Shown here piece by piece: positions 4,469-11,567 of a stretch of 13,702 bases of DNA (the stretch's first letter is position 1; each line of letters starts with the position of its first letter). The notes below the pieces were generated by a model, which was given only the letters and a program-made list of their open reading frames with translations, was not told the origin of the DNA and ran no database searches. The translations under genes were made by a program, and so were the position numbers. Source of the stretch: Thermoplasmata archaeon (GTDB lineage: Archaea > Thermoplasmatota > Thermoplasmata > Thermoplasmatales > Thermoplasmataceae); NCBI GenBank assembly GCA_021797385.1, contig JAJZZW010000036.1, forward strand, positions 1-13,702. Direction: 5' to 3'.

Positions 4469-6214
4469 TTATACAAGTGAAACAATTATAATTATCAGTA
4501 TGAAGGCAGCTATCATGTATGCAATATATGCTGATATAGAACTGTTCATGATTTTGTATGCTGTAAATTTTGCAAAATTTCTATAAGCCTTAGCGATATT
4601 TATCATGATCAACCAGAAGATATCGACAGTTTCTACTCTGTTTTCATCTGTGCTTTTAGTCCTGAGCACCCTTTTAAGGATCAGGCGGATGTTATTAGAA
4701 TATGTGGATGAATTATAGTATTCTCCATGTTCTACTCCACCGTTCCAGCGATTGGCAATTCTGGTTTTTGGCCTTCCAAATACGAGAAATATAATTACCG
4801 TAAACACCGTCAATAATATAACAATGTAAAGCGGTGTTATAAGCCCGAAATCAGAGACACCAAGCCTTGATTCAATCATAAATCCATTGAATACAAGAAC
4901 AGAGGGTATGCCTGATATATAGTTCTTACCTACTATCAAAAATGATACAGCAAATAGGAATACAAGTGTTATCCCTGTTCCCAGTATAGTATAATTCTCC
5001 AGATTTTTTCCACGGGATTTCCTGTGGCTATCGGTGAAATAGAAAATTTTCAGCATTGCAGCGGTGGCGAATCCCTCCCCCATGGCAATAAGGGATCCAG
5101 CTATGATCGAAGCAATACCAAGTGGCCCGTACAGGTAGGCACCCATGAAAAAGGATTCCAGTACCATCCACGTTCCAAGACCACCAAGTGATGGGAATAG
5201 CCCGGAAAGCGAAGACATTGCAAAAAATTTGCCTACCTGATTAACAGTGTCCTTGCCTCCGTTAACTGCACTGAAATATTCAACACCTGTATGGCCAATG
5301 GATATAAACAACCCGGTTTTTGCTATTGAATGAGCCATGGCAAAAATGGCTATGGAAATAAGGATAAATTCTTTTAATACACTGTCATTGACAGCTACAA
5401 AAAGTCCTAATGCTGCCATCAACACTCCATTATTTTCTATAGTACTGAATCCTCCCAGGGATTTCATATTTTCAGATATGTATGCATAGAGTGCCCCGAA
5501 GAGTACAGAAATCACACCTATAATAATGAATAATATGCCTATATCAATGGAAACCGGAGAAAGCAGTGCTATTTTTAAAATTCCATATACACCCATGAGG
5601 GTCATGGTTGCACTGAAAATTGCGGATGAATTTGCCGGGGCACTGCCATGGGCAATGGGAAGCCACTCACTTATCATGAAGGGCGTCAACCCCATTTTAG
5701 ACATGGCGCCTATGGCAAATATGAGTAAAACCATATCATTGGAAAGTCCGGTAAAATTGAATGTGCCCGTATAGTAATAGGAAAGTACTGCAGCAGTTAT
5801 GATCAGTACGGTGCTTATTTCAGAAAACAGCATGAATATATAGGCTTCCATGTCATTTTTCTTATTTATTGCCACGGTTAAATAGGCAGGTATCGACATT
5901 ATCTCCCAGCCTGTTATAAATACCAGGAAGTTATTAGCATACAGTATTGTCATCATTCCGGCAATGGTCAGTATGAACAGTGGTGCAAGCCATCTTCCAT
6001 ATTTCTTTGAATATGAAATAGAGAACACCGATGTTATTATCCATACGATGGCTGCTATTAAGTAAAAGTATGTTATATAATCAAAAATCCTGAACGTGAA
6101 AAGGAAAAACAGTACTGAAGCTATAGCTGTAATTATGTAACCCGCGGTTCTGTATTTTATTGAAATCAGTACAGCAAGGAAAATTGCCATGAGCGGTATA
6201 TAGTAAGATATCAT
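4469..6214 (-). CDS. NuoL/HyfB-like antiporter-type membrane subunit of a complex-I-related complex
   Basis: This 581-residue polytopic membrane protein belongs to the Mrp/NuoL/M/N proton-pumping family (Proton_antipo_M domain), in the HyfB/HycC branch. The key charged residues of the ion path are present: Glu104 in TGWEIMS, Lys173 in AMSKMGLTPF, and His189 in WLPIAHGSAPANSSA, followed by FSTIENNG and the HSIAKTGLF Lys helix. The C-terminal loop WNGGVEHGEYYNSSTYSNNIR matches the HyfB region usually reading W.CG......YTA..FS. The start ATG overlaps the stop of the small subunit (ATGA) and has GAGGGAT just before it. It is the last gene of the operon. It lacks the long lateral helix of true NuoL. 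The role inferred is ion translocation coupled to electron transfer in the peripheral arm. Confidence 0.88.
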   Translation of the reverse strand: MISYYIPLMAIFLAVLISIKYRTAGYIITAIASVLFFLFTFRIFDYITYFYLIAAIVWIITSVFSISYSKKYGRWLAPLFILTIAGMMTILYANNFLVFITGWEIMSIPAYLTVAINKKNDMEAYIFMLFSEISTVLIITAAVLSYYYTGTFNFTGLSNDMVLLIFAIGAMSKMGLTPFMISEWLPIAHGSAPANSSAIFSATMTLMGVYGILKIALLSPVSIDIGILFIIIGVISVLFGALYAYISENMKSLGGFSTIENNGVLMAALGLFVAVNDSVLKEFILISIAIFAMAHSIAKTGLFISIGHTGVEYFSAVNGGKDTVNQVGKFFAMSSLSGLFPSLGGLGTWMVLESFFMGAYLYGPLGIASIIAGSLIAMGEGFATAAMLKIFYFTDSHRKSRGKNLENYTILGTGITLVFLFAVSFLIVGKNYISGIPSVLVFNGFMIESRLGVSDFGLITPLYIVILLTVFTVIIFLVFGRPKTRIANRWNGGVEHGEYYNSSTYSNNIRLILKRVLRTKSTDENRVETVDIFWLIMINIAKAYRNFAKFTAYKIMNSSISAYIAYMIAAFILIIIIVSLV

Positions 6215-6810
6215 CTTTTATCCCTCGCTTCTATTATTGCATTGAGGATTGATGCCGGTGTCGGAGGGCATCCTGCAATATGGATATCATATTTCTCCAT
6301 GGCTTCTCTGCCGATAATTCCACCTGAAAGTGCGCATGCACCAAGTCCTATGACAATTTTCGGTTCAGGCATGGCATCATAGGCCTCCTGAAGAACTCTC
6401 TCCATTCCATCAGTATGAACACCCATAACTACCAGTGCATCAGCATGTCTTGGAGTATTTGCCATAAAAATTTTGAACCTGCTGGAATCATACTGTGGTG
6501 AAAATAAGGAGGTAAATTCAACATTGCAGGCACCACATGTTCCGGAGTCCACCGGATAAATATACAGGGATTTTTTGAATATGTCCGGGACAAGATGCTG
6601 AACAGAATATGTTTCCTGTTTTCCTGTTGGCTTCAGGTCGCACTGCCTGCAGAATATGCATTTATCCATGTCCCAGTTGCCATTCCTGAGTGCCTCCGTT
6701 GGGCACTTATAATCACTAACTCCCTCGAGTATAGAAGGATACATAACCTGGTACTGATCCAGTTTCTCCGTCTTTATCCTCTTTCTGATGCCGCTGATGA
6801 ACCAGTTCAC
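6211..6810 (-). CDS. Small (NuoB/HyfI-like) subunit with fused single-cluster NuoI-like ferredoxin segment
   Basis: This 199-residue subunit starts at GTG 6810, overlapping the large-subunit stop (GTGA), with GGAGGTGG about 8 bases upstream; a longer open frame to 6939 has no such signal. The C-terminal part is the NuoB/hydrogenase small-subunit domain with all four ligands of the N2-type [4Fe-4S] cluster: Cys92 and Cys95 (GTCGACNVE), Cys159 (GACALSGG) and Cys181 (GCPPTP). The N-terminal part resembles NuoI/HyfH: WFISGIRKRI, then CPTEAL (Cys36) and CIFCRQC (Cys51, 54, 57), which are the four ligands of just one [4Fe-4S] cluster. So two separate subunits of relatives (HyfH and HyfI) are joined and the ferredoxin part is cut to one cluster. 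It should carry electrons toward the large subunit at the membrane. Family assignment is firm; the electron donor is unknown. Confidence 0.88.
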   Translation of the reverse strand: MNWFISGIRKRIKTEKLDQYQVMYPSILEGVSDYKCPTEALRNGNWDMDKCIFCRQCDLKPTGKQETYSVQHLVPDIFKKSLYIYPVDSGTCGACNVEFTSLFSPQYDSSRFKIFMANTPRHADALVVMGVHTDGMERVLQEAYDAMPEPKIVIGLGACALSGGIIGREAMEKYDIHIAGCPPTPASILNAIIEARDKR

Positions 6811-7961
6811 TGAAACCCCACCTCCAGTTCCGATATCCAGATGCCGAAGCTTTCCCATACAAAAAAGAAATCTGTGAAAATATTGCCGCTTTTCAGTCCA
6901 TATCTGAAATTTCTCATATTGAGATACGATGGTGAGCACATCTGTATATCAATCAACCTGCCTTCATTTATGTTCACATAATAAAAGAGGTCGCCGGCAG
7001 GTGATTCTATCCTTGCAATGCCCTCACCCGTTCCGTTCAATTCCATTCTATGCTTTCTGTAACTTTTTTTAATATCGTATGATTCTATTATATTTATGGA
7101 CTCAAATATCTCTTCCGCCCTGACCAGAAATCTGGAAAACGTATCACCACTGGTTTCCATTACAGTACTGTATTTTCCATATATTAGAGACTCGGAGTCC
7201 AGTCTGGCATCGTACCTGAAGTTTGCCGCACGTGCTGCTGGACCTGTTGATACAGGATTCAATAGAATTCCATTTTCCTGTAGCCTGTCCAGGAATATTT
7301 TGGAGGAAAGCAGGCCATTATAAATGGATCTGAACTGTTTCTCAATGGAACTGAGTGATATTCTGGAAAAATCCCCATCAATGGAGTTTATGCCATTTAC
7401 AGAAAAATAATATCTGTGACCGAAAGCACTGGAAATTATTCTTGCAACTTCCTCCCTTAATAGGAGAAGCTGTTTTTCAGGCACGGCAAATCCAGCAGAT
7501 TCACATAAGCCTTTTATCACATCGATATTTGACCTTATTCTCTCCAGTTCAATTTCTACAATTCTCGCATCATTTAAATCCCCATTCTCAACATTCAGGG
7601 CATCCTCCACGGCCAGTGCATAAGCTATGCTGTGTGATGCTGAATGAAATCCGTTGATCCTTTCCACTTTCAGCATCGCATCTGAAATACTATCTCCCGT
7701 TATTTTTACATTCCTTCTTTTAAAACCTGAATTTATTATAACATCCCTTATAGATTCACCGGGTGTGAGGAGCCGGAAATTTACGGATTCCCTCAGTCCT
7801 CCTGCGGATGGACCATAATTGAAATAGATTTCCCCCTGGGTTCTTTCTTCATGATCATCTTCATCTTTACCTATTCCGGTAATCGTTGAGGTGTAAATAT
7901 CGTATTTTTCAGTTCTTCCGATATATCTTCCAGTTTTATCTCCGAATTTATAATATTTCAT
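6807..7961 (-). CDS. NuoD/HyfG-like large subunit lacking all [NiFe] ligands
   Basis: This 384-residue protein is of the complex I 49 kDa / group 4 hydrogenase large-subunit family. The start was set at ATG 7961, with GGTGGTG before it; an ATG at 7982 would add seven residues and lies deeper in the upstream gene. FNYGPSAGGL near the N-terminus matches the family's GPxHxG region, and VERINGFHSASHSIAYALAVED (about 99-120) aligns exactly with the group 4 motif ERICGICS.SHS..., with both Cys replaced (Asn103, His106). The C-terminus, ending in WISELEVGFQ, holds no counterpart of the DPCxxC motif. No Ni-Fe centre can form, so the protein is not a hydrogenase catalytic subunit. As in complex I, the site may serve a quinone or another acceptor, though the HRGIEK segment of NuoD is also not seen. 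It overlaps HyfF by 14 bases and the small subunit by 4. Confidence 0.85.
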   Translation of the reverse strand: MKYYKFGDKTGRYIGRTEKYDIYTSTITGIGKDEDDHEERTQGEIYFNYGPSAGGLRESVNFRLLTPGESIRDVIINSGFKRRNVKITGDSISDAMLKVERINGFHSASHSIAYALAVEDALNVENGDLNDARIVEIELERIRSNIDVIKGLCESAGFAVPEKQLLLLREEVARIISSAFGHRYYFSVNGINSIDGDFSRISLSSIEKQFRSIYNGLLSSKIFLDRLQENGILLNPVSTGPAARAANFRYDARLDSESLIYGKYSTVMETSGDTFSRFLVRAEEIFESINIIESYDIKKSYRKHRMELNGTGEGIARIESPAGDLFYYVNINEGRLIDIQMCSPSYLNMRNFRYGLKSGNIFTDFFFVWESFGIWISELEVGFQ

Positions 7962-9273
7962 GATACACCACCAGGAATACAATTCCTATGAATATAGATA
8001 TAATTGCTGCTATAAGGGGTATAATAGTATTAATTCCTGACTGGCTGTATTCTGATTTGCCCCTGAACAGCATTTTCGATACATTGAAGTTTATGGATAC
8101 AAATGCGAGGAACAGTGAAAGTACTATTATCCCGAACTGTGCATAGAAATGTATGGACAGCACTGAATAAAGTATCAGAAATTCACCGAAGAATGTTCCG
8201 AAGGGGGGTGTTCCGGTTACGGCAAAGGACGATAGTAGCATTGAAGCCGCACTTGCTTTATTTCTTATTAATCCACCAACACCGTCAATTGATTTCGTGC
8301 CGGACATCTCATAAACATTTCCTGAGGAGTAAAAGGCACCGGCTTTTCCGAAACTGTGTGAGAGGAGAAGCAGGAGGGAACCCACCAGGCCTGCGAAGGT
8401 AAAGGTGCTCAAACCTATGAGTGCGATGTTCATATTTTCCATTGTTGAATATGCAAACATTCTCTTGTAGTTTCTCTGGTATCCCAGGAATATGGCTGCA
8501 AAAAGCACTGAAATAGTTCCAGCCCAGATAAATATTTCTCTCATAGGATATATTTCATAAATTCTGTAAAGTACATACAGTGCCACAGGCAGTAATACCC
8601 CGGAGAACATTGCGCTGACAGGTGCAGGTGCCTCGCTATGGGCATCGGGAAGCCATGTGTGCACAGGAAAAACACCGACTTTCGTGCCGAACCCAACCAG
8701 GGCAATTCCCACTGCAAGCCTGACTGCAAGGCTATCCCTGATTCCTTCAGATAGAATTACGGTAACGGTCAGTGTCCCGAATGCATAGTATATCAGTATA
8801 ACAGATATGAAGGCAAATGTAACACCAGCGGAAACTATAATTATATACCTCCATGTTGCTTCCAGTGATATATCTGATTTCTCTGTTATTAGGAGCAGGG
8901 CAGATGATATTGTAGTTGTTTCTATTCCAACCCACATGAAACCATAATTATTTACCATGAGGGCAAATTCCATGGCAACATAGAAAAATCCCATGAGCAT
9001 GTAATAAACATTTTCAGAAATTCCCTTATTCCCTATATTGTGAATATATTTTCTGGAATATAGCAGGGACATAAGATAAATAGAGCTTACCATGAGAATG
9101 AATATGTAGGTAATATGATCAATGAAAAAGAATCCGGAATTGGATAAATCAAAATAAAGCGGGATAAGCAGGAATAATTCAATAATTGCCCCTATTATGC
9201 TGGTTATCTTTATATTTTTATAGAATGCCATGGCAATCAATGGTATAATCAGTATGAGTATTTCATAAATCAT
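7948..9273 (-). CDS. NuoN/HyfF-like antiporter-type membrane subunit
   Basis: This 441-residue protein with many membrane segments belongs to the Proton_antipo_M family, HyfF branch. MWVGIETTTISSALLL (Glu118), GTKVGVFPVHTWLPDAHSEAPAPVSAM (Lys198, His205, His212), YSTMENMNIALIGL and the HSFGKAG helix are diagnostic and carry the conserved Glu, Lys and His residues of the ion path. It starts at ATG 9273, overlapping the HyfE stop in ATGA. It would supply the second pumping module next to the HyfB-like subunit of the same operon. Length and motifs are complete. Confidence 0.88.
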   Translation of the reverse strand: MIYEILILIIPLIAMAFYKNIKITSIIGAIIELFLLIPLYFDLSNSGFFFIDHITYIFILMVSSIYLMSLLYSRKYIHNIGNKGISENVYYMLMGFFYVAMEFALMVNNYGFMWVGIETTTISSALLLITEKSDISLEATWRYIIIVSAGVTFAFISVILIYYAFGTLTVTVILSEGIRDSLAVRLAVGIALVGFGTKVGVFPVHTWLPDAHSEAPAPVSAMFSGVLLPVALYVLYRIYEIYPMREIFIWAGTISVLFAAIFLGYQRNYKRMFAYSTMENMNIALIGLSTFTFAGLVGSLLLLLSHSFGKAGAFYSSGNVYEMSGTKSIDGVGGLIRNKASAASMLLSSFAVTGTPPFGTFFGEFLILYSVLSIHFYAQFGIIVLSLFLAFVSINFNVSKMLFRGKSEYSQSGINTIIPLIAAIISIFIGIVFLVVYHEIL

Positions 9274-9911
9274 CCTCTCAACTCCTCCACGGGTTTATGC
9301 TCGGTTTTCTCGATACTGATTATTGAAAAAATCACAACCAGTATCAGCACATCCAGAAATACGCTGCTTTCTATTATTATGGGGACAGGAAGAATAAAGG
9401 TACCCATGAGTATCAGCGAATTTTCTTCCTCGATATAACCCAGTATCTGTGCAATAGTTCTCCTCCTGGATGCAATAATAAAAAGCCCCTGGAAGAAAAG
9501 TAACAGGGGGAATAGTATAATATTACTCGCAGGGAATATGCGTGAAACTATATGAATAAAGGATATTGAATAGACAATGAATATGGAAATTACAATGAAC
9601 GCAAGGTCAACCAGAAGATAATAAGTGGTTGGTAGCCTTGATTCGTATAAATAATTTTTATTTTTCGGTATCTTCGCTGCAAGGAAATATGTAACCAGAA
9701 CGCTCCTCAGAAGAATAACAAGCACAGCTAGTATGAAAAATGTATACTGCTTGAGTTCAAAACCCAGGAATATTGCTATAATGGCAATGAGGAGTGACTG
9801 AAATGCCTGGGTCATGACCATTGATCTCAAATATTTGTTGCTCTGAATGTAAAATCCAGTAACCACTATGAGTGCGGCCAGGAGATATATTATTGTAAAA
9901 ACTATATTCAT
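9270..9911 (-). CDS. HyfE-like membrane subunit
   Basis: This 213-residue membrane protein matches the HyfE component of hydrogenase-4-type complexes, whose first half is NuoK-like. ILVILLRSVLVTYFL-type helices and the late motif ILGYIEEENSL fit the conserved GY.EEENGI region of HyfE. The start was set at ATG 9911, overlapping the NuoH-like stop (ATGA), with GAGGTGAT directly before it. A longer frame reaching 10046 runs through the upstream gene with a polar, unrelated N-terminus and was not used. It probably links the two antiporter-type subunits to the NuoH-like subunit. Confidence 0.85.
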   Translation of the reverse strand: MNIVFTIIYLLAALIVVTGFYIQSNKYLRSMVMTQAFQSLLIAIIAIFLGFELKQYTFFILAVLVILLRSVLVTYFLAAKIPKNKNYLYESRLPTTYYLLVDLAFIVISIFIVYSISFIHIVSRIFPASNIILFPLLLFFQGLFIIASRRRTIAQILGYIEEENSLILMGTFILPVPIIIESSVFLDVLILVVIFSIISIEKTEHKPVEELRG

Positions 9912-10849
9912 GCGATCACCTCGGTAAGTATCAAAAATAGTATTGAAAATGTGAATGCCACTGCAAGATAGTCTATGACCTTGAACAGGCGCAACTTTGC
10001 CAGGGAAGTATCTACTATCAGTACTATTATTATGAGCAAGATCCATTTAGCAAACATCACAATAGCATTGAGGAAAAATAATGGAAACGTATTGAACATT
10101 CCCCACGGAATAAGAAATACATTGATCAGTACGGATCCCAGAAGATACACTTTCATATAGGATGACCATTTGTTTACTGCAAGTGCCTTTCCACTGTATT
10201 CATAATCTATGCCAGAATCAATCATGCCCATTTCCTGGTTTCCCTCACTCTGTGTTGGCATCTTCCCGAATTCATACATGAAAATCATGAAAAATGCAAA
10301 CACCGCGAATATATGCACAAGGCTCAGATTGGAAAGTGGATGGCTGATGAGGTAATGATTTGTAGTATATGGATTGTTTGTGCCGCTTATCAGTGCTACT
10401 GCGAAGAATACAGTTATAAGTGTGCCCTCGCTGAAGAAGTTGAAGGACATGAGCCTTGAGGCACCCATGGAAGAGAAATTGCTGCCCGAATCCATAGTTC
10501 CTATTATTTTTATAAATGCAGCCAGGGAAAATAATATTGCACCGGCAAAGAAATCACCTGACGCGGTAAAAATTATGGGTTCGGTCATGAATACGGGTAT
10601 AATAAGGGCGATGAGCGAATATATGCCGAATGCCATATAGGGTGCATATAAAAATAATCTGGATGAATTTTCTGTAATTACAGTTTCCTTTTTCAGTAAC
10701 TTGAATATATCATAATATGGCTGGAATACGCTTGGCCCTTTCCTGGATTCAACATTTGCCTTGAACTTTTCAAAAATCCCTATAAGAAGTGGTGAAAATA
10801 GAACAACGAATAAGTACTGTGTAACCGTCTCCAGGATTAACTCTAACAT
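9908..10849 (-). CDS. NuoH/HyfC-like membrane anchor subunit
   Basis: This protein of about 313 residues is the NuoH/HyfC family member that joins the peripheral arm to the membrane arm. RKGPSVFQPYYDIFKLLKKE (about 36-55) is the family signature after the first helix. The acidic loop QSEGNQEMGMIDSGIDYEYSGKALA resembles the E(L)xM..E...EYSG segment that couples quinone-site changes to the membrane arm. The start ATG 10849 has GGTGAT four bases before it; an in-frame GTG at 10858 would add three residues but overlaps that signal. It is the first gene of the operon and follows a leader of about 50 bases. Confidence 0.87.
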   Translation of the reverse strand: MLELILETVTQYLFVVLFSPLLIGIFEKFKANVESRKGPSVFQPYYDIFKLLKKETVITENSSRLFLYAPYMAFGIYSLIALIIPVFMTEPIIFTASGDFFAGAILFSLAAFIKIIGTMDSGSNFSSMGASRLMSFNFFSEGTLITVFFAVALISGTNNPYTTNHYLISHPLSNLSLVHIFAVFAFFMIFMYEFGKMPTQSEGNQEMGMIDSGIDYEYSGKALAVNKWSSYMKVYLLGSVLINVFLIPWGMFNTFPLFFLNAIVMFAKWILLIIIVLIVDTSLAKLRLFKVIDYLAVAFTFSILFLILTEVIA

Positions 10850-10905
10850 TTTAATCACCAGTAGGCGTCATCAGCGCACTGCATTATGGAGACGTCATTC
10901 CTATA

Positions 10906-11171: not shown

Positions 11172-11567
11172 TTATAATCTGTTTCTGTATTCTTCTGCCT
11201 TTTTGAATAATGGTTCAGGGCAATTGAACACTGTGGGTTCATCTGTGAATTTTAATTTATTTGATAAATAAGATTGAATAGATGCTATTTCATCTCCATT
11301 TGATATATATACCTTTATTCTGTTATTCAGAAAATGTATTCCTGGTCCACCTATTCCGGGTAATATTATAGAATTCACGTTCTCTTTTATCAGCGATTGT
11401 AAAAGCGGGAGACCACCATCCTCCTTTATTTCTATTGACGGATTTTTATAAGTTTTTATCAAATCATACTTTGTTCTGTCGTTTGATATTTTATACATAT
11501 GAACTTCACTGGCCTTTCCGGGCATATCTACATTATCTCCTGTAACGGGCACTGCCAATATTTCCAT
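11172..11567 (-). CDS. NifX/NifB-type FeMo-cofactor domain protein (Nitro_FeMo-Co family)
   Basis: This 131-residue soluble protein is of the dinitrogenase iron-molybdenum cofactor biosynthesis domain family (RNase H-like fold). The N-terminal strand MEILAVPVTG, followed by an MYKI-type second strand, and the C-terminal half with SIILPGIGGPGIHFLNNRIKVYIS match the family's G.G......L...gi.vy segment. It uses ATG 11567; a TATA-like TTTATATG centred 25 bases upstream indicates a leaderless message. No nitrogenase genes are nearby, and stand-alone members of this family are common in archaea that do not fix nitrogen, so a role in binding or delivering an Fe-S or metal cluster is the most that can be said. 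The family is fairly sure. Confidence 0.8.
   Translation of the reverse strand: MEILAVPVTGDNVDMPGKASEVHMYKISNDRTKYDLIKTYKNPSIEIKEDGGLPLLQSLIKENVNSIILPGIGGPGIHFLNNRIKVYISNGDEIASIQSYLSNKLKFTDEPTVFNCPEPLFKKAEEYRNRL

Follow-up and report, generated by a model that had tools for sequence, protein, structure and literature searches.

A conserved six-gene, complex I-like block of Thermoplasmatales whose hydrogenase-like large subunit lacks all four nickel-iron ligands

What does a membrane complex built like a group 4 hydrogenase do when its large subunit lacks every ligand of the nickel-iron (NiFe) centre? The question is raised by a 13,702-nucleotide stretch of contig JAJZZW010000036.1, here called the window, whose source is a Ferroplasma-like archaeon. 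An earlier note, made from the sequence alone, had described such a large subunit at 6807..7961, and its coordinates proved right. The gene is encoded on the minus strand, runs from an ATG at 7961 to a TGA ending at 6807, and codes for 384 amino acids; a plus-strand reading of 6807..7961 was ruled out by the many stops on that strand. Its product matches PF00346 (Complex1_49kDa) at 63.7 bits, above the cut-off, and NiFeSe_Hases weakly at 20.4 bits, below the cut-off. The motif ERINGFH occupies residues 100-106, and WISELEVGFQ forms the final ten residues, 375-384.

All four ligand positions are replaced, as had been claimed, and the replacements are fixed. Among 120 listed large-subunit homologues of the 254 found, column 103 is asparagine in 120 of 120 and column 106 is histidine in 119 of 120. 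One row is gapped at the C terminus; in the other 119, column 375 is always tryptophan and column 378 always glutamate. In a joint alignment, true group 4 hydrogenases have cysteine at the columns of N103, H106, W375 and E378 in 26 of 26 sequences. An alternative pairing of the C-terminal cysteines with F372 and W375 was replaced by a gapless pairing with W375 and E378, anchored on the near-universal D364. Near-duplicates do not create the pattern, as representatives sharing less than 70% identity (n = 48) carry the asparagine, histidine, tryptophan and glutamate in 48, 47, 48 and 48 cases, respectively. At least 99% conservation is reached by 59 of 384 columns, all four ligand columns among them; the probability that all four would be so conserved by chance is about 0.0005 if columns are exchangeable.

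The gene is also under purifying selection. The ratio of nonsynonymous to synonymous substitution rates (dN/dS) is 0.087 and 0.105 against the close relatives L014 and L007, for which dS is unsaturated. Pairs with saturated dS (2.3-3.8) were left aside (L009, 0.058; L010, 0.141; L013, 0.148), as were L006, whose 0.278 derives from a dS of only 0.010, and L008 and L011, which returned no value. Because the columns are fixed and dN/dS is low, we regard the replacement of the NiFe ligands as old, fixed, and under selection. Judged by its sequence, the large subunit is not a hydrogenase. To the idea that it is a decaying hydrogenase, a pseudogene, or a sequencing error we give almost no credence. 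Some genomes do invite it: G181 (L054) has the gene broken across two frames, and G196 has a second copy in that state (G196:C3:752746-753914), which reflects either assembly error or recent loss, and 12 of 61 family genomes carry neither form of the gene described below, seven of these being less than 90% complete. Yet dN/dS is near 0.1, the replacements are fixed across 48 clusters below 70% identity, the six-gene operon is intact, and homologues in other assemblies agree (L006, 99% identical; L014, 89%; Ferroplasma acidarmanus Fer1, L009, 69%). Both pseudogene status and sequencing errors at the motifs are thereby ruled out, in line with the earlier view that the gene is functional.

Our genome searches covered 61 family genomes, 33 of them of high quality and all of them other than the window's own assembly. 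HypD, the scaffold for Fe(CN)2CO that the NiFe cofactor requires, was found in none of the 61, and the same search was positive in 4 of 14 control genomes, including Escherichia coli. HypE was a poor marker, giving weak matches in 61 of 61 genomes and none above the cut-off. Matches to PF00374 occurred in 12 of the 61, and in all 12 they fell inside the large-subunit gene itself. By the HypD and PF00374 searches, no intact hydrogenase paralogue was seen in the 61 family genomes.

Six closely spaced genes, read from 10858 to 4469, form a block in which the large-subunit gene comes fourth:

9908..10858, minus strand: HyfC/HycD/NuoH-like membrane anchor, 316 amino acids (PF00146, 117 bits)
9270..9911, minus strand: HyfE-like small membrane subunit (NF008556, 39.8 bits, below the cut-off of 136; present in 13 of 13 loci)
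7948..9273, minus strand: HyfF-like antiporter subunit, 441 amino acids (NF005042, 566.3 bits, cut-off 437)
6807..7961, minus strand: large subunit (HyfG/HycE/NuoD-like), 384 amino acids, with N103, H106, W375 and E378 in place of the NiFe ligands and E58 kept
6211..6810, minus strand: small subunit, a HyfH-like N-terminal domain fused to a HyfI/HycG-like domain (PF01058)
4469..6214, minus strand: HyfB-like antiporter subunit, 581 amino acids (NF005046, 627.7 bits, cut-off 460)

Neighbouring genes overlap at an ATGA at 9911, where the ATG of the HyfE-like gene meets the HyfC stop, and at a GTGA at 6810, where the inferred GTG start of the small subunit overlaps the large-subunit TGA by 4 nucleotides. 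Each of the 13 loci compared (the window, eight other window-type loci, and four of a sister type) carries all six genes together, and the operon is indeed intact. Outside the six, when open reading frames of at least 110 amino acids were compared at E 1e-12, no neighbour was common to more than two of the 13 loci, save antisense frames within the operon. A window-type gene scoring above 400 bits is present in 34 of the 61 family genomes, and one more (G181) has it in the split form already mentioned. The sister type (290-360 bits) is the best match in 14 genomes, including G196; this count rests on score, and four of the sequences were read (L027-L030).

Where does this family belong? We built a tree of 95 sequences, from which exact duplicates and the broken G181 gene (L026) had been removed, including 18 of the 120 family proteins listed, 10 of the 120 proteins listed with a true hydrogenase as query, and 10 of the 120 listed with an Ehr-like (energy-converting hydrogenase-related) query. 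The family forms its own split with support of 100. Hydrogenases, Nuo, and Fpo-like proteins make up a clan, also with support of 100, and the family lies outside it. Family and Ehr-like proteins do not form a split; an Ehr-like clan, composed of unnamed sequences with the motif ERISGDN and exclusive of named Ehr, MbsL, CooH, and Eha/Ehb proteins, separates the family from the hydrogenase/Nuo clan. MbhL and MbsL were compared by profile search only. In this tree the family is a separate lineage, distinct from the clan of true hydrogenases and Nuo as well as from the Ehr-like one. The earlier assignment to Ehr-type complexes therefore stands in a loose sense, in that the NiFe cysteines are gone and complex I/Hyf-like membrane subunits are encoded in the operon, but in the tree the family does not group with the Ehr-like ERISGDN clan.

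Among the sister large subunits, L028 and L030 read ERYCGPLS, with one cysteine at the first ligand column inside a non-hydrogenase clan. Two NuoD/Fpo-like sequences, L065 and L076, have tyrosine at the Y87 column and still begin both former CxxC motifs with cysteine; from their sequences, they appear to resemble a halfway stage of ligand loss.

The chamber that once would have held the metal was mapped by profile alignment to MbhL, HycE, and Nqo4, with residues named as in the portions of PMC9474812 and PMC7684303 that treat them. E58 corresponds to the glutamate of the beta1-beta2 loop (MbhL E21, HycE E193) and is invariant in the 119 ungapped rows of the 120 listed homologues. Within the same set, HycE S283 corresponds to S144 (119 of 120), R395 to R244 (120 of 120), and E437 to E284 (117 of 120, the rest aspartate), while H284 corresponds to N145 (asparagine in 85, histidine in 35). 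At columns 58/103/106/322/373/375/378, the majority signature is E/N/H/Q/G/W/E in the window family, E/C/C/R/D/C/C in hydrogenases, G/D/A/K/D/V/E in NuoD, and E/S/N/R/N/S/G in the Ehr-like clan. Owing to this seven-column signature, we consider the chamber to be neither hydrogenase-like nor complex I-like, with the proton entry of hydrogenases still kept. The proposal that the asparagine and histidine mark a lineage-specific acceptor site fares unevenly. The pair is lineage-specific, but the H106 column is phenylalanine in L025 and P0119 (2 of 33 family members in the tree set) and leucine, leucine, tyrosine, and histidine in the sister sequences L027-L030. Given these exceptions, a strict catalytic pair does not extend to the wider lineage.

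The electron path into this chamber appears to be shortened. In an alignment of 20 small subunits, which counts the window and some near-duplicates, all 20 have the four cysteines of the proximal cluster, spaced as in hydrogenases (CGAC). The N-terminal part resembles E. coli HyfH/HycF, but its first CxxCxxC and final CP are missing. The lost cysteines are exactly those that belong to one ferredoxin cluster of the two, and all 20 sequences retain the other set, a CP and a CxxCxxC. With one cluster's cysteines gone, the wire is predicted to have two [4Fe-4S] clusters, not three, a feature that the earlier note had not described. In complex I, N6a is ligated by the first CxxCxxC together with the last cysteine, and N6b by the rest. 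By analogy with that assignment, the distal cluster is predicted to be lost and the cluster adjoining N2 to stay. On the membrane side, alignments of three or six sequences, in which single columns are tentative, place Glu, Lys, His, His, and Lys at HycC columns 135, 208, 222, 332, and 336 of both antiporter-like subunits (column 208 being leucine in HycC itself and lysine in its relatives), keep HycC E391 in the HyfF-like subunit, and place glutamate at HycD columns E138, E189, E199, and E203 of the anchor.

We propose that the block encodes a six-subunit, membrane-bound, complex I-like complex of Thermoplasmatales that is unable to handle H2 and acts as a ferredoxin:quinone oxidoreductase coupled to proton translocation, a reading that we believe and doubt in about equal measure. 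It would belong to the group 4 hydrogenase/Ehr/complex I stock. Electrons from a soluble one-electron donor, likeliest reduced ferredoxin, would first reach the one [4Fe-4S] cluster left in the shortened ferredoxin domain and then the fully cysteine-ligated proximal cluster. An acceptor would then be reduced in the former NiFe chamber, lined by N103, H106, W375, and E378, with protons supplied via E58, and turnover would drive proton translocation through the HyfC-like anchor and the two antiporter-like subunits. We favor ferredoxin as donor because the ferredoxin arm is shortened and the six-gene block has no module for formate or for reduced nicotinamide adenine dinucleotide (NADH). The cells respire with quinones, and since the fold is shared with complex I, a membrane quinone would be the likeliest acceptor.

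Several observations weigh against this proposal. The Nqo4 H38 column is not conserved (M/I/R/L/V/E) and the Y87 column is glycine in 104 or alanine in 16 of the 120 listed homologues; the loss of both quinone residues of complex I is what holds our confidence at an even balance. According to the relevant part of PMC9474812, complex I and hydrogenases retain a canopy arginine and aspartate. Here the arginine (R478) is lost, with Gln/Ala/Ser/Pro at column 322, the aspartate (D529) has given way to glycine at 373, and W375 may fill part of the cavity. Neither antiporter-like subunit keeps the residues of HycC columns K239 and H328, E391 is threonine in the HyfB-like subunit, and HycD Y102, R108, E130, E201, and E206 are replaced in the anchor. 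The operon has no donor gene linked with it in any of the 13 loci compared. Furthermore, most family genomes have a second match that scores like NuoD (four such sequences, L002 and L073-L075, were examined in alignment), which would make a second quinone reductase partly redundant.

An unlikely but serious alternative is that nothing is catalyzed in the chamber. The large subunit would then be a structural coupling piece, with electrons leaving to a docked protein, or the complex would run in reverse, using the proton motive force to reduce ferredoxin from quinol or another donor. The canopy residues are lost, W375 could plug the cavity, no acceptor residues were recognized, and sequence does not tell direction; nevertheless, the strict conservation of N103, H106, W375, E378, and E58 argues for function at that very spot. 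If there is chemistry there, it could be that of the Pyrococcus complex MBS, a sulfane or polysulfide reductase in which the proximal [4Fe-4S] cluster itself would reduce sulfur chains, but we consider this quite doubtful. Acidic, sulfur-rich habitats and the sulfur respiration of Thermoplasma would suit such a reaction. The absence of H38 and Y87 is likewise shared with MBS, as described in part of PMC7684303. Against it, the CxxC loop is as long as that of E. coli HycG and bears four cysteines in 20 of 20 small subunits, a proximal cluster that makes an MBS-like reaction less likely, and E58 is kept. Moreover, of the five genomes from the Thermoplasma genus (that of T. volcanium), four lack the complex; as T. 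acidophilum respires sulfur, the complex does not seem to be needed for sulfur respiration.

It is also conceivable, but decidedly improbable, that the former NiFe cavity holds a new active site, in which N103, H106, and E378, with E58 as proton donor, would bind a non-NiFe metal or the acceptor itself; if true, the chemistries of the complex I superfamily (H2, quinone, and sulfane) would gain a fourth. The narrower version, a non-NiFe metal bound by N103, H106, E378, and perhaps E58 and reducing a small molecule, we judge very improbable. Three potential nitrogen or oxygen ligands do stand, all fixed, at the NiFe cysteine columns, but H106 is phenylalanine in two of the 33 tree members and leucine or tyrosine in three of four sisters, and no extra gene accompanies the operon. 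The expectation of a functional complex with a different catalytic centre holds for the conserved non-hydrogenase complex, and the different centre is possible rather than demonstrated.

Other genes of the window were recorded alongside the operon. Just upstream of it, at 11172-11567 on the minus strand, is a small protein with a weak match to a dinitrogenase FeMo-cofactor-binding domain (24.5 bits, cut-off 26.3). A DUF211 gene lies at 4330-3504 on the minus strand, and the gene directly after it matches VIT1 below the threshold. At 1186-2169 on the plus strand, the first part of a single open reading frame matches Nudix hydrolases and the second part family 4 uracil-DNA glycosylases; its product is possibly a fused repair and sanitizing protein.

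Biological energy conversion centres on the complex I superfamily, within which the path from hydrogenase to quinone reductase is debated. Labels such as "Ni,Fe-hydrogenase" and "formate hydrogenlyase" on genes like these mislead metabolic models. Since the complex is present in cultured, non-pathogenic acidophiles, the role of Ehr-type complexes could be tested directly.

Part of this story is already in print. Yelton et al. (2013; PMC3750248), in the portion concerned, report Ferroplasma "putative group 4 hydrogenases" that lack both Ni-binding motifs and possibly have another function. To judge from sequence and from that portion, those genes are very likely the same as ours; the F. acidarmanus Fer1 cluster has the same six-gene order. 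The replacing residues, the shortened wire, and the absence of HypD are not named in that portion, and its section 12 does not list these genes as anaerobically induced. The cluster is labeled there as formate hydrogenlyase, whereas no formate dehydrogenase is found among 12 scanned window proteins. In F. acidiphilum, FAD_0579-0584, mentioned as Mrp/hydrogenase-related in a part of PMC5473848, may be the same block. The open literature, outside of which most subscription journals lie, yielded nothing on this lineage's residue signature, its wire of two clusters, or its lack of HypD, so that the chamber signature and shortened wire are apparently undescribed; PMC8975820 likewise offers nothing relevant.

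Ehr complexes without metal-binding residues are described, in the parts concerned, from Sulfobacillus (PMC4378227), Nitrospira (PMC10284858), bacteria of the candidate phyla radiation (CPR; PMC7304191), and lineages that are siblings of Cyanobacteria (PMC6349859), and those parts give no measured reaction. Our complex resembles the Sulfobacillus, Nitrospira, and CPR versions in being related to group 4, missing CxxC, and having complex I/Hyf-like membrane subunits; the Sulfobacillus Ehr comprises six syntenic genes with homology to NuoH, NuoL, HyfE, and HyfB (same part of PMC4378227). The Ehr-like ERISGDN clan differs, with mostly S/N/S/G at the ligand columns and the canopy arginine in 18 of 19, as opposed to N/H/W/E and no canopy arginine in the family. 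E. coli HycE is the best structural match to the large subunit, and MbhL, of the Pyrococcus membrane-bound hydrogenase (MBH), is the best sequence match with a solved structure (126.8 bits). As in hydrogenases 3 and 4 and MBH, the proton-donor glutamate and hydrogenase-type proximal cluster are kept; unlike them, the family has no NiFe ligands, canopy Arg/Asp, or maturation HypD, and its small subunit has one ferredoxin cluster fewer than HycF/HyfH. Like MBS (PMC7684303, in part), it has a non-hydrogenase chamber without the quinone residues of complex I, but MBS has a three-cysteine proximal cluster and a shortened loop (MbsJ, by the description there), whereas the family has four cysteines, a loop of HycG length, and the E21 equivalent. 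With complex I (NuoD/Nqo4) it shares the fold, an acidic residue at column 378, and the lack of NiFe; it differs in having neither H38 nor Y87, in a small-subunit CGAC in place of the tandem cysteines (CC) of the NuoB N2 motif, and in a six-gene block without an NADH module or separate NuoC. This lineage combines the absence of NiFe ligands and of any sign of HypD with a hydrogenase-type proximal cluster, the proton-donor glutamate, and, at the last ligand position, the acidic residue of complex I.
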